Below, piece after piece: positions 39,189-42,876 of a DNA stretch of 64,000 bases. The DNA is taken from contig NZ_OY735139.1 in assembly GCF_963457605.1 (NCBI RefSeq), positions 2,324,001 to 2,388,000 of the forward strand, in the 5' to 3' direction. Below the pieces are notes generated by a model. That model ran no database searches and had not been told where the DNA came from. It worked only from the letters and a program-made list of their open reading frames with translations. Numbering within the stretch: position 1 is the stretch's first letter; each line of letters begins with the position of its first letter. The translations under genes were made by a program, and so were the position numbers. Source of the DNA: an uncultured Gellertiella sp. (lineage in GTDB: Bacteria > Pseudomonadota > Alphaproteobacteria > Rhizobiales > Rhizobiaceae).

Positions 39189-39457
39189 ATACCAAGGATC
39201 ACTGATGGGAACCCATTCGATGGCGTGGAAACGGATACCGGGCAGGAGAATACCGCAGGTCGATGCTTTGAGCATCGACCGAGGATTTCGACGCCCTCCG
39301 GTGGCCGAATTCCACGCCACCCGGAGGGCCGGTCGCTTTTGACTTGCGGACGGCGTCGAAAATCCTCGCCGGACCGGTAGGTCCGACTGCGGTTTTCTCC
39401 TGGCCGCAAGCCAAAATCGATCCGGTCGAATGGGTTCCCATCAGTGATCCTTGGTAT
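39189..39457. mobile_element. MITE-like element with 32-bp terminal inverted repeats
   Basis: Bases 39189-39220 and 39426-39457 are perfect reverse complements over 32 bases, enclosing 205 bases. The inside carries further pairs: a hairpin GGTCGATGC/GCATCGACC near 39276-39298, GAGGATTTCGACGCC-type arms (one-base difference), and AGGAGAATACCGCAG matched by an almost exact copy near 39398. No transposase or convincing ORF lies inside, and I do not see a clear target-site duplication. It may be a non-autonomous element or a rhizobial intergenic mosaic repeat. Confidence 0.7.
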
Positions 39458-39506: not shown

Positions 39507-39983
39507 CTACGGCTGCGGCTTCGACGGTTCGGAGAGGTCGGCCCAGATTGCCCCTGTCAGCGCCGCCATGCGCTCCGGCTGGATTCGCACCGCTGCATGG
39601 GTGGCGCCGGCGGCCGGGACCACTTCATCAAAGGCCTTGAGCGAAATGTCGCAATAGACCGGCAGTGGCTGCGCGAGACCGAAGGGGCAGACGCCGCCGA
39701 CCGGATGGCCCGTGAGTTCACTGACCTCTTCCGCACCCGGCATGCGCGGCTTTGCGCCGAAAAGTGCCTTGAACTTGCGATTGTCGAGCCGGGCGGTGCC
39801 CGACAGCACCACGAGAATAACGGTCTCGCCGACCCTCGCGCAAAGCGTCTTGGCAATCTGCTCGGGCATCACGCCATGGGCTGCGGCGGCAAGCGCCACC
39901 GTTGCCGAACTTGCCTCGGTCACGATGACCTCGATTTCGGGGGCATGGGTCTGGAAAAACGCGCGGACGGAGGAAAGGCTCAT
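39507..39983 (-). CDS. YbaK/EbsC-type aminoacyl-tRNA deacylase
   Basis: A 158-residue stand-alone member of the YbaK/prolyl-tRNA editing superfamily that removes wrong amino acids from tRNAs in trans. Seen: a TEASSATVALAAAAHG segment, AKTLCARVGETVILVVLSGTARLDNRKFK with the conserved Lys (AKTL), PRMPGAEEVSELTGHPVGGVCPFGL, typical of the fold, and a C-terminal strand. The ATG at 39983 has an AGGA site eight bases upstream; the frame is open 53 codons further without support. Which tRNA it edits is not predictable. Confidence 0.9.
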   Translation of the reverse strand: MSLSSVRAFFQTHAPEIEVIVTEASSATVALAAAAHGVMPEQIAKTLCARVGETVILVVLSGTARLDNRKFKALFGAKPRMPGAEEVSELTGHPVGGVCPFGLAQPLPVYCDISLKAFDEVVPAAGATHAAVRIQPERMAALTGAIWADLSEPSKPQP

Positions 39984-40112
39984 CGGTGCATCCTGTTGCA
40001 AGGGTATGCCCATAAGTATAGGCAACCGGGCAGGACGCGGCAACGGGCTGCGAGCCATGCAATATTTGCAACGCTGCACTGCAGCATTAATGGTTTTAAA
40101 TGCCGCGCATTC

Positions 40113-40246
40113 CTGTACATTCCAATCATCGAAGTGACGCACTCCTCCTCCCAGCGTCCTTCGGGGAGACTGGCAATCCTCCTCCTCCCAAATTGCCAGT
40201 CAGTATCCGAAACCCGGCGCTCCTCCCGCGCCGGGTTTTGTCTTTT
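40113..40246 (+). ncRNA. cuckoo/alpha-r14-type anti-Shine-Dalgarno small RNA
   Basis: Three hairpins in a row expose CCUCC loops. Hairpin 1: CGAAGTGACGC (40130-40140) with GCGTCCTTCG (40154-40163), one bulge, loop ACTCCTCCTCCCA. Hairpin 2: GACTGGCAAT with ATTGCCAGTC (40168-40201), perfect 10 bp, loop CCTCCTCCTCCCAA. Hairpin 3: AAACCCGGCGC with GCGCCGGGTTT (40210-40238), perfect 11 bp, loop TCCTCCC, followed by TTTTGTCTTTT as intrinsic terminator. Rhizobial cuckoo (alpha-r14, NfeR1) and Rhodobacter CcsR RNAs have this design: CCUCCUCCC loops that mask ribosome-binding sites of many mRNAs. The 5' end is estimated. Confidence 0.88.
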
Positions 40247-40344
40247 CCGGATATCTCGCCCGGCAAGGCGATCGGTCACTGGCGAAAGAATCAGGCCAGG
40301 GCCTTGAAAAGACCCGGTCACCCTCCCATTTCCCTGTCATGAAA

Positions 40345-40486
40345 CGTTAACCATTCTGGTGTAGCGTTACAAAAATGGTTCCGGACTTCAGTTCTGGAAC
40401 ATCTCTTTATCAAAGGCGCTGACCACGGATGTACTGGCAGCCCGGCGATCAGATAAAAGGCCCGGAGCAATCCGGGTCTTTTGCAT
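40345..40486 (+). ncRNA. possible second small RNA
   Basis: Downstream of the cuckoo-type RNA the plus strand folds into AACCATT/AATGGTT, then CCGGAC/GTTCTGG, and ends at the terminator hairpin 40455-40482 followed by TTTTG. No ORF fits. The terminator may belong only to the minus-strand peptidase gene, so transcription on plus is uncertain. Confidence 0.3.
40455..40482. terminator. bidirectional terminator after M20 peptidase gene
   Basis: AAAAGGCCCGG pairs with CCGGGTCTTTT (one G-U), loop AGCAAT. On minus it lies 80 bases after the peptidase stop with a TTTTA tail; on plus it ends CTTTTG. Confidence 0.65.
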
Positions 40487-40561
40487 TTGGGGACCTTTCG
40501 CAGATGCGAACACGCGGGCGGCCCCGAGAGAGGTTCCGGCGCCGGTTTGTCCCGCGCCGAT

Positions 40562-41947
40562 TTACAAGGCGATCTGCTCGAGGATCCGGATCCAGGACCG
40601 AATCCCCTTGTGGAAGGATTGCAGGTCATATTTCTCGTTGGGAGAATGGATGCGGTCGCCACTGAGCGCAAAGCCGGTCAGCAGAGATTCCATGCCGAGC
40701 ATCTTCTGGAAATCACCGACGACGGGGATCGAACCACCCATGCCGATGACGACGGCGGGTTTCGGCCATTCCGCTGACAGGGCTGTCTTGGCCTTCGACA
40801 GCAGGTCGGAATCATAGGCGAGCTGGATGGCGGGAGAACCGCCATGCTCGCTGAACTCCACCGAACAGTCGGCCGGAACCCGGGCCTGCACATAGGACCG
40901 GAAGGCGGTCCTGATCCTGGCGGGGTCTTGCTGGCCGACCAGCCGGAAGGAGATCTTGGCGGAGGCTTTCGCGGCAATCACGGTCTTGAAACCTTCGCCT
41001 GCATAGCCGCCCTCGATGCCGTTGACCTCGGCGGTTGGGCGCGCCCAGGTCAGTTCCAGCACCGAACGACCCTGTTCCCCCGAAGGGATCGACAGGCCGA
41101 TGGCACCGAGAAAGCTTTCGTTCGAGGTGCCGAGCGTCTCCCACATCGCCCTTATCGAATCGGGCGTTTCCTCCACGCCGTCATAGAAGCCCTCAAGCGT
41201 CACCCGGCCCGTCTCGTCATGCAGTCCGGCGAGAATACGGGCAAGGATATGGATCGGGTTGGCCGCAGCACCCCCGTAATAGCCGGAATGCAGATCGCGC
41301 TTTGCCGCCCTGATCGTCACCTCTTCGCCGACCAGACCGCGCAGGCCTGCGGAAATCGCCGGGGTGTCCCGGTCCCACATCGAGGTATCGCAGACCAGCG
41401 CAAAATCGGCCTTCAGTTCCGGTGCATGGGCGGCAAGGAAGGGTTTCAGCGACGGAGAGCCCGATTCCTCCTCGCCCTCGAAAAGAATGGTAAGGCGGGC
41501 GGGCAGCTTGCCATGCACCTCCTTCCAGGCACGGCAGGCCTCGACAAAGGTCAGAAGCTGGCCCTTGTCATCGGAGGTGCCACGCCCGGTGATCACGTCA
41601 TGGCCGTCCTCGTCGCGAATTTCGGGCTCGAAGGGATCGGTGTCCCACAGCGCCACGGGATCGACGGGCTGCACGTCGTAATGCCCGTAGAACAGCGCAT
41701 GCGGCGCATCCGGCCGGTTGCCCTGGTGGTGGGCGACCACCATCGGATGGCCTGCCGTGTCACGCACCGAGGCATCGAAGCCGAGGCCGGTGAGCTCGCG
41801 CACCAGCCATTCGGCGGCGCGGCGGCATTCCGCGGCATAGGCGGGATCGGTGGAAATCGACTTGATCCGGACCAGCTCGAACAGCCGTTCCAGGCTTTCC
41901 GGCAGGTTCCGGTCGGCACGGTCCAGCACGGCATTGATATCAGACAT
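40562..41947 (-). CDS. M20 family dipeptidase
   Basis: A 461-residue cytosolic metallopeptidase of the M20 CNDP-like group, no signal peptide. Zinc-site motifs: LFYGHYDVQPVD (His, Asp), TGRGTSDDKGQLL (bridging Asp), LFEGEEESGSPS (catalytic Glu and ligand), VCDTSMW, and HSPNEKYDLQSFHKG with the final His. The dimerization/lid domain lies between. Substrate is probably dipeptides or N-acyl amino acids. No partner gene is linked. Confidence 0.92.
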   Translation of the reverse strand: MSDINAVLDRADRNLPESLERLFELVRIKSISTDPAYAAECRRAAEWLVRELTGLGFDASVRDTAGHPMVVAHHQGNRPDAPHALFYGHYDVQPVDPVALWDTDPFEPEIRDEDGHDVITGRGTSDDKGQLLTFVEACRAWKEVHGKLPARLTILFEGEEESGSPSLKPFLAAHAPELKADFALVCDTSMWDRDTPAISAGLRGLVGEEVTIRAAKRDLHSGYYGGAAANPIHILARILAGLHDETGRVTLEGFYDGVEETPDSIRAMWETLGTSNESFLGAIGLSIPSGEQGRSVLELTWARPTAEVNGIEGGYAGEGFKTVIAAKASAKISFRLVGQQDPARIRTAFRSYVQARVPADCSVEFSEHGGSPAIQLAYDSDLLSKAKTALSAEWPKPAVVIGMGGSIPVVGDFQKMLGMESLLTGFALSGDRIHSPNEKYDLQSFHKGIRSWIRILEQIAL

Positions 41948-42639: not shown

Positions 42640-42745
42640 CACGGGAGGGGGAGAAAGGGGGCCGCCATGGCCTGGAGGGGGAGCCATGGCGGCACGAAGG
42701 AGGGGACAAAGGCCCGAGAGGGGGATTAGGCCTTTGTCCGGGTCT
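42640..42745. other. twin hairpins with G-rich/C-rich loops
   Basis: Two perfect 11-bp stems: GCCGCCATGGC (42661-42671) with GCCATGGCGGC (42683-42693), loop CTGGAGGGGGA; and GGACAAAGGCC (42704-42714) with GGCCTTTGTCC (42729-42739), loop CGAGAGGGGGATTA. Flanks carry further GGGG runs (from 42643). On minus the loops read UCCCCCUCC, like anti-Shine-Dalgarno loops; on plus they look like Shine-Dalgarno sequences. No clear terminator is seen in either direction, so strand and transcript ends are uncertain. Confidence 0.6.
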
Positions 42746-42876
42746 GATTGCCAAGCGGGGGACGGGCAGGCAACCAGACATCGGCGGCTTCCAGCGCCGG
42801 TGTTACTGAAATGTGCCCCCGATTGTGGTTTTTCAAGGGAAGCCCCCGATCTGCCGAATTACAATTTGGTAACGTT

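Follow-up and report, generated by a model that had tools for sequence, protein, structure and literature searches.

The interval between a YbaK-domain gene and an M20 peptidase gene, in the 64,000-nucleotide stretch of Gellertiella DNA analysed here (the window), raises the question of whether it carries a gene of its own and, if so, of what kind and under which control. A sequence-only reading had proposed for this place a three-hairpin small RNA of the cuckoo/alpha-r14 class, with anti-Shine-Dalgarno loops and a likeness to NfeR1. Family membership, a predicted fold, covariation, a gene neighbourhood and a conserved promoter block were all observed. Taken together, we consider it highly probable that the interval holds a stand-alone, trans-acting alpha-r14 sRNA gene, which would be activated by LsrB at its own promoter and would silence several mRNAs through its anti-Shine-Dalgarno loops.

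Identity and predicted fold of the ar14 RNA

To establish the identity of the RNA, the window was searched with Rfam covariance models. The model RF02344 (ar14) matched the plus strand at 40124-40243 with 103.1 bits, against a gathering cut-off of 58.8 (E 6.5e-18 in the 64-kb window), and the alignment was complete, covering model positions 1-123 of 123. The alpha-r14 class had therefore been named correctly from the letters, and the covariance-model search proposed with it ended in a match from end to end, far over the cut-off; the Rfam output names no separate cuckoo model. A model built from our own alignment of ar14 sequences (A1) scored the window copy at 110.1 bits, with the window copy itself among its 30 sequences. 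Membership of the ar14 family has all the certainty that sequence analysis can give. The RNA probably spans 40124 to about 40243, as judged from the Rfam match, with the start placed at the model's first position. The interval first proposed, 40113-40246, does hold the RNA but is slightly long, since 40113-40118 is the likely -10 hexamer. The window ar14 is a real but ordinary addition to a catalogued family, and no new kind of system. The features of the region are collected in Table 1.

Table 1 Positions of the ar14 RNA, its parts and its neighbours in the window
Feature	Position	Strand	Basis and remarks
YbaK-domain (aminoacyl-tRNA editing) gene	39507-39983	-	PF04073; divergent from the RNA
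LsrB-type box TGCAATATTTGCAA	40058-40071	+	at -66; resembles the published TGCA-N6-GCAT
Second, nearly palindromic element GCTGCACTGCAGC	40073-40085	+	letters; adjoins the box
Probable -10 hexamer CTGTAC	40113-40118	+	inferred; lines up with the CTATAT that precedes the NfeR1 candidate of Sinorhizobium meliloti
ar14 (alpha-r14) sRNA, ~120 nt	40124-40243	+	Rfam RF02344 match, covariation, alignment-built model
Hairpin 1	40129-40164	+	centroid fold; 11 pairs, one bulged U, loop ACUCCUCCUCCCA
Hairpin 2	40168-40201	+	centroid fold; 10 unbroken pairs, loop CCUCCUCCUCCCAA
Hairpin 3, terminator	40208-40240	+	13 unbroken pairs including G-U, loop UCCUCCC, then TCTTTT
ar35-like sRNA	40369-40487	+	26.4 bits against a gathering cut-off of 45; E 0.0033 in a 361-base search
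M20 family peptidase gene	40562-41947	-	PF01546, PF07687, NF006579; convergent with the RNA
ar7 sRNA	42656-42802	-	RF02342, 90.9 bits; near polA, 2.4 kb from ar14

Three successive stems with CCUCC-containing loops, as the sequence-only reading had described, were found on the plus strand. The minimum free energy of 40113-40246 is -54.6 kcal/mol (z = -7.9), and none of 200 dinucleotide shuffles was equally stable. All six CCUCC words lie in loops, each with an unpaired probability of at least 0.99. The whole CCUCCUCCC is present in loops 1 and 2, while loop 3 has its last seven letters (UCCUCCC) only, the C preceding them being paired. The T-run noticed earlier behind the last stem is borne out in the form TCTTTT, in which one C interrupts the run, and hairpin 3 was scored as a terminator. 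The 4.17-Mb genome contains the 9-mer CCTCCTCCC 32 times and the reversed control 65 times, so the word itself is not enriched. Two copies of CCTCCTCCC within 60 bases occur at only three places in the genome, the window ar14 among them; the unusual feature is the arrangement of the copies and not the frequency of the word.

The fold was further assessed on A1, which consists of 30 of the 42 ar14 loci (L001, L002, L004-L013 and L094-L123), window copy and paralogs included; it was hand-chosen to thin the set and omits the genus copies L011-L013 and nine others. The 32-pair structure has 92.5% of 938 cells paired in A1, a count in which the structure is favoured because helices 2 and 3 were derived by RNAalifold from A1 itself and helix 1 was drawn by hand. 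The compensatory base changes, whose absence had been named beforehand as a result that would speak against the RNA, are present, with two-sided changes in 26 of the 32 pairs. None of 500 shuffles reached the structure on any of five measures, and pairing fell to 36-47% when the partners were shifted by 1-3 columns. Pairing is complete in helix 3 (100% of cells; two-sided changes in 9 of 11 counted pairs) and reaches 97.3% in helix 2 (9 of 10 pairs). It is weaker in helix 1 (80.4%; 8 of 11 pairs), a hairpin that RNAalifold missed and whose pairs were set by hand for this count. Loop letters make up 19 of the 26 invariant columns. Constant loops with freely changing stems are described as the signature of alpha-r14 and SmelA075 (PMC10746234, PMC3927594), and the alignment of the window ar14 carries that same signature.

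Gene neighbourhood, paralogs and distribution

Both neighbours given in the sequence-only reading, a YbaK-type gene and an M20 peptidase gene, were recognised by domain searches. PF04073 was found with the longer frame 39507-40142, and the YbaK gene does not reach the equivalog cut-off of NCBIfam YbaK. With the M20 peptidase as query, a protein search yielded 80 named loci, and a strong ar14 (at least 69 bits with the A1 model) lies near the M20 gene in 21 of them. A YbaK match (tblastn, E 1e-8) was present in 15 of the 80 loci, and ar14 adjoins it in 13 of these 15, the YbaK loci without ar14 being L026 and L048. At seven loci of Ensifer, Sinorhizobium or unnamed Rhizobiales (L017, L019, L021, L030, L032, L039 and L052), ar14 and the M20 gene are 2-4 kb apart, with no YbaK gene; at L077 ar14 has the opposite orientation.

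ar14 matches were found in all five genus genomes, own included. For the surveys of the family and the class the filters were stricter, at the cost of some weak matches. Of 199 genomes sampled from the family, 194 have an ar14 match (over the cut-off in 184); of 289 sampled from the class, only 15 do, own included, which was the only one over the cut-off.

The search for paralogs suggested earlier returned one copy over the cut-off and one weak candidate in the genome. The former, at C2:47994-48118 (-), scores 69.9 bits. Behind it come a DUF1127 gene and trmFO, ordered and oriented as they are at the S. meliloti NfeR1 locus, so that this copy corresponds positionally to that locus. The weak candidate, at C2:689932, scores 17.3 bits with an E of 1 (loci L003 and L138, C2:689880-690090). 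By eye, it has two CCTCCTCCC loops and, after them, a terminator-like hairpin that stands apart and lacks the motif; it is possibly a further anti-Shine-Dalgarno RNA.

ar14 is matched three times in the S. meliloti record CP090106. Two of the matches form a tandem pair at 1819122-1819522, between tig and DUF1127-trmFO, and the second member of the pair has TGCA-N6-GCAT and CTATAT upstream; we treat this member as the NfeR1 candidate, identified by box, -10 and place and not by a named annotation. The third match, at 212789-212907, lies about 3 kb from an M20 gene, and by virtue of this linkage the window copy corresponds positionally to it. The likeness to NfeR1 claimed from the letters holds for the three hairpins, the anti-Shine-Dalgarno loops, the box and, in part, the -10, but the window RNA is the M20-linked copy and not the positional ortholog of NfeR1. 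The position of NfeR1 and its promoter type would thus be found on two different paralogs here, which is mildly new. We also observed that CP090106.1, a 3.72-Mb record labelled S. meliloti plasmid pSymB, carries polA, dnaK, trmFO and ntrC, and it looks like a chromosome under a wrong label.

Several other elements were observed in the window and at related loci. The ar35-like RNA sits between ar14 and the M20 gene; its TGACCACGGATGTACTGGCAG is identical in the window and in four aligned genus loci, and an ar35 over the cut-off adjoins the M20 gene in four of five Rhizobium loci scanned. With ar7, whose S. meliloti member SmelC023 is likewise described near polA (PMC3927594), the number of sRNA genes or candidates within 2.7 kb comes to three. 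An intergenic repeat of about 270 bp at 39189-39457 has perfect 32-bp terminal inverted repeats and looks like a MITE-like element. It has 12 near-full copies at 95% identity or more in its own genome, window copy included, and two more near-full copies at 86-87%, plus fragments, among the 40 of 47 candidates that were scored. Among 72,556 plasmid records, it was matched only at 76% on a Martelella plasmid and partially on an Ensifer plasmid.

At five Rhizobium loci (L015, L018, L022, L028 and L058), the place of ar14 is taken by a different three-hairpin RNA, located between 8296 and 8996 (-), whose first two loops have CCCUCA/CCCCUCAA in place of CCUCCUCCC. GGAACC lies upstream of this RNA in all five loci, and its GGAAC is reminiscent of stress-sigma (EcfG) promoters. 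The RNA of L022, which alone was scanned in this way, scored 44.2 bits against Rfam ar14, under the cut-off, and the five RNAs scored 22.6-37.1 bits with the A1 model. The Rhizobium RNA could be an ar14 descendant with a changed target choice.

Upstream region and predicted control by LsrB

For its activation of NfeR1, LsrB is reported to use a TGCA-N6-GCAT box located at -72 to -60 (PMC10746234). The TGCAATATTTGCAA box of the window copy is one letter off this pattern on the plus strand and fits it exactly on the minus strand; the corresponding TGCATCACTTGCAT of the S. meliloti NfeR1 candidate lies at -71 from the model start, or at -67 when the AATC common to both sequences is used to align them. 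A TGC-N(5-7)-GCA(A/T) box between -80 and -50 was found in 19 of the 21 named M20-linked ar14 copies, and at -66/-67 in 17 of them, against a background of 2.4% among random 100-nt segments of the window, for a box at any place in the -80 to -50 range. This pattern was defined after the sequences had been viewed, and only its fixed distance across relatives counts as evidence; by itself, it is not significant in the window (10 matches against 6.5 expected). Within the genus, five of 12 copies have the box (L001, L005, L006, L007 and L008), and the M20-linked relatives L004 and L009 are a single letter short of it. It is absent at -80 to -50 from all five trmFO-linked genus copies (L002 and L010-L013), whose trmFO-like neighbours were recognised by a short motif and, for the own-genome copy, by NCBIfam. 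The own-genome copy at C2:47994-48118 has one box-like word, at -163. In the adjoining GCTGCACTGCAGC element, the G, TGC and TGC positions are (nearly) invariant in alignment A3, which holds 22 sequences hand-picked from copies with a visible motif and serves as an illustration and not as a test.

For the core promoter, CTTAGAC-N17-CTATAT (-35/-10) was taken as the criterion of the NfeR1 type. The -10 of the window copy matches in part the CTATAT that published NfeR1 promoters carry, and no -35 was seen. A simple sigma-70 scan likewise returned no plus-strand promoter for the RNA and no consensus -35, which would fit an activator-dependent promoter but is no proof of it. Further upstream, TGC-N12-GCA at 40007-40024 differs by one in its spacing from the NtrC site of NfeR1 (TGC-N11-GCA near -116 to -101) and overlaps a site (40043-40015, -) that resembles a promoter of the divergent YbaK gene.

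A candidate for LsrB itself, a LysR-type gene, lies between trxB and the ar15/AbcR gene elsewhere in the same genome, and the same trxB/ar15 arrangement is described for vtlR of Agrobacterium (PMC7486931). We infer that the promoter of the window copy is of the NfeR1/LsrB type, with LsrB binding as a prediction. Elsewhere among the relatives the upstream DNA takes other forms: at L095, L102, L117, L118 and L121, a DUF1127-like reading frame ends before ar14 (by eye), and other relatives have a TATTGCACTGCACAA-like element or an LsrB-type box. As far as these motifs indicate, several promoter classes serve one RNA family.

Predicted action, alternatives and comparison with known systems

Based on these features, we propose the following course, in which transcription, LsrB control, targets and repression are all predicted. 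The LysR-type regulator LsrB/VtlR would switch on the RNA's own promoter through the box at -66, and a transcript of about 120 nt, expected of an ar14 RNA to be Hfq-independent, would terminate at hairpin 3. The three hairpins would hold the anti-Shine-Dalgarno loops open, so that each loop could base-pair with purine-rich ribosome binding sites, halting the translation of several mRNAs, most likely of transport and metabolism genes overlapping the AbcR targets. For NfeR1, the three loops are described as redundant in silencing and as blocking ribosome binding sites, and the predicted targets are mostly transport genes (PMC10746234, PMC7143759). Given the same anatomy, the same action is most likely for the window RNA.

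The gene ntrB was considered as a target and is not supported. Its start region in this genome offers GGAGG (5 nt) only and no 8-nt pairing site. By duplex energy, ntrB comes 25th of 48 in a comparison with the window ORFs, a rank that is indicative only, the start choices being crude. With S. meliloti ntrB as a positive control, the 8-nt match GGGAGGAG was recovered, equal to the published length. A possible, though rather doubtful, extension of our proposal is that the ar14 roles in the genus have been split or swapped. The M20-YbaK copy would then be an LsrB-run stand-in for NfeR1, beside a trmFO copy without the box, and the NfeR1-ntrB feedback of S. meliloti would not operate here, since ntrB lacks the 8-nt pairing site.

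The chief doubt about the window copy is that it could be silent. By northern blot, only one of the six S. meliloti copies is reported as reliably detected (PMC7143759), and the window copy occupies the place of a copy other than NfeR1. It might accordingly be an intact but silent or nearly silent paralog, with the trmFO-linked copy doing the work, and the lack of a consensus -35 points in the same direction. However, the window copy is the better family match of the two (103.1 against 69.9 bits) and keeps the box that the five trmFO-linked genus copies lack at -80 to -50, and we regard silence as unlikely.

A stand-alone gene, as we propose, also has to be set against a cis-acting element, that is, a leader or terminator of an adjoining gene. 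Hairpin 3 would indeed make a good terminator, but both recognised neighbour genes are on the minus strand, the plus-strand frames that extend into the RNA run antisense to the YbaK gene, none of them with a Pfam match, and ar14 is also met in different surroundings, such as those of tig and DUF1127-trmFO, all of which makes this explanation very improbable. Protein coding can practically be dismissed: open frames exist, such as an 80-aa frame at 40100-40342 (+) and a 113-aa frame at 39980-40321 (-), but neither these two nor six others overlapping or flanking the RNA have a Pfam match (none of the eight tested), and the changes preserve pairing, a pattern of the RNA type, among M20-linked genus copies of 120, 122 or 123 nt.

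As a stand-alone ar14 gene, the window copy is a clean example of how broadly acting regulators escape protein-based annotation. Its paralogs offer a way to ask how LsrB control and target choice shift between multi-copy anti-Shine-Dalgarno RNAs, and they also bear on whether the ntrB nitrogen feedback is a speciality of some rhizobia.

Among known systems, the cuckoo RNAs, or CcsR1-4, of Rhodobacter have several hairpins with anti-Shine-Dalgarno loops, as does the window RNA, and the CcsR RNAs are made together with a DUF1127 gene. Such an arrangement was rejected here: three short motif expressions for DUF1127, applied to six frames of the whole window, gave no match, and neither did DUF1127 Pfam searches of the frames tested around the RNA. 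A similar expression gave zero matches on six genus loci, a result that is uninformative because the expression was too strict and missed the Pfam-confirmed DUF1127 gene beside the C2:47994-48118 copy.

AbcR1 is described as activated by LsrB/VtlR and as having anti-Shine-Dalgarno loops (PMC8844928, PMC7486931, PMC10746234). AbcR1/2 (Rfam ar15) share these loops and overlapping predicted targets with the window RNA but form a separate family, with one ar15 match in this genome, at C2:864216-864333. Like ar14, ar7 (RF02342, SmelC023) has C-rich loops, with CCUCC in that of its last hairpin, but it is a separate family near polA, whose first and second hairpins have different loop letters.

The window copy differs from NfeR1 of S. 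meliloti in its place between YbaK and M20 (the NfeR1 candidate lies between tig and DUF1127-trmFO), in a shorter loop 3, which is found in all four M20-linked genus relatives in A1 as well, in having no clear NtrC site upstream, and in an own-genome ntrB without the 8-nt pairing site. It resembles NfeR1 in its length, in its three hairpins with anti-Shine-Dalgarno loops and its terminator, in an LsrB-type box at a nearly equal distance from the start, and in a probable -10 that matches CTATAT in part.
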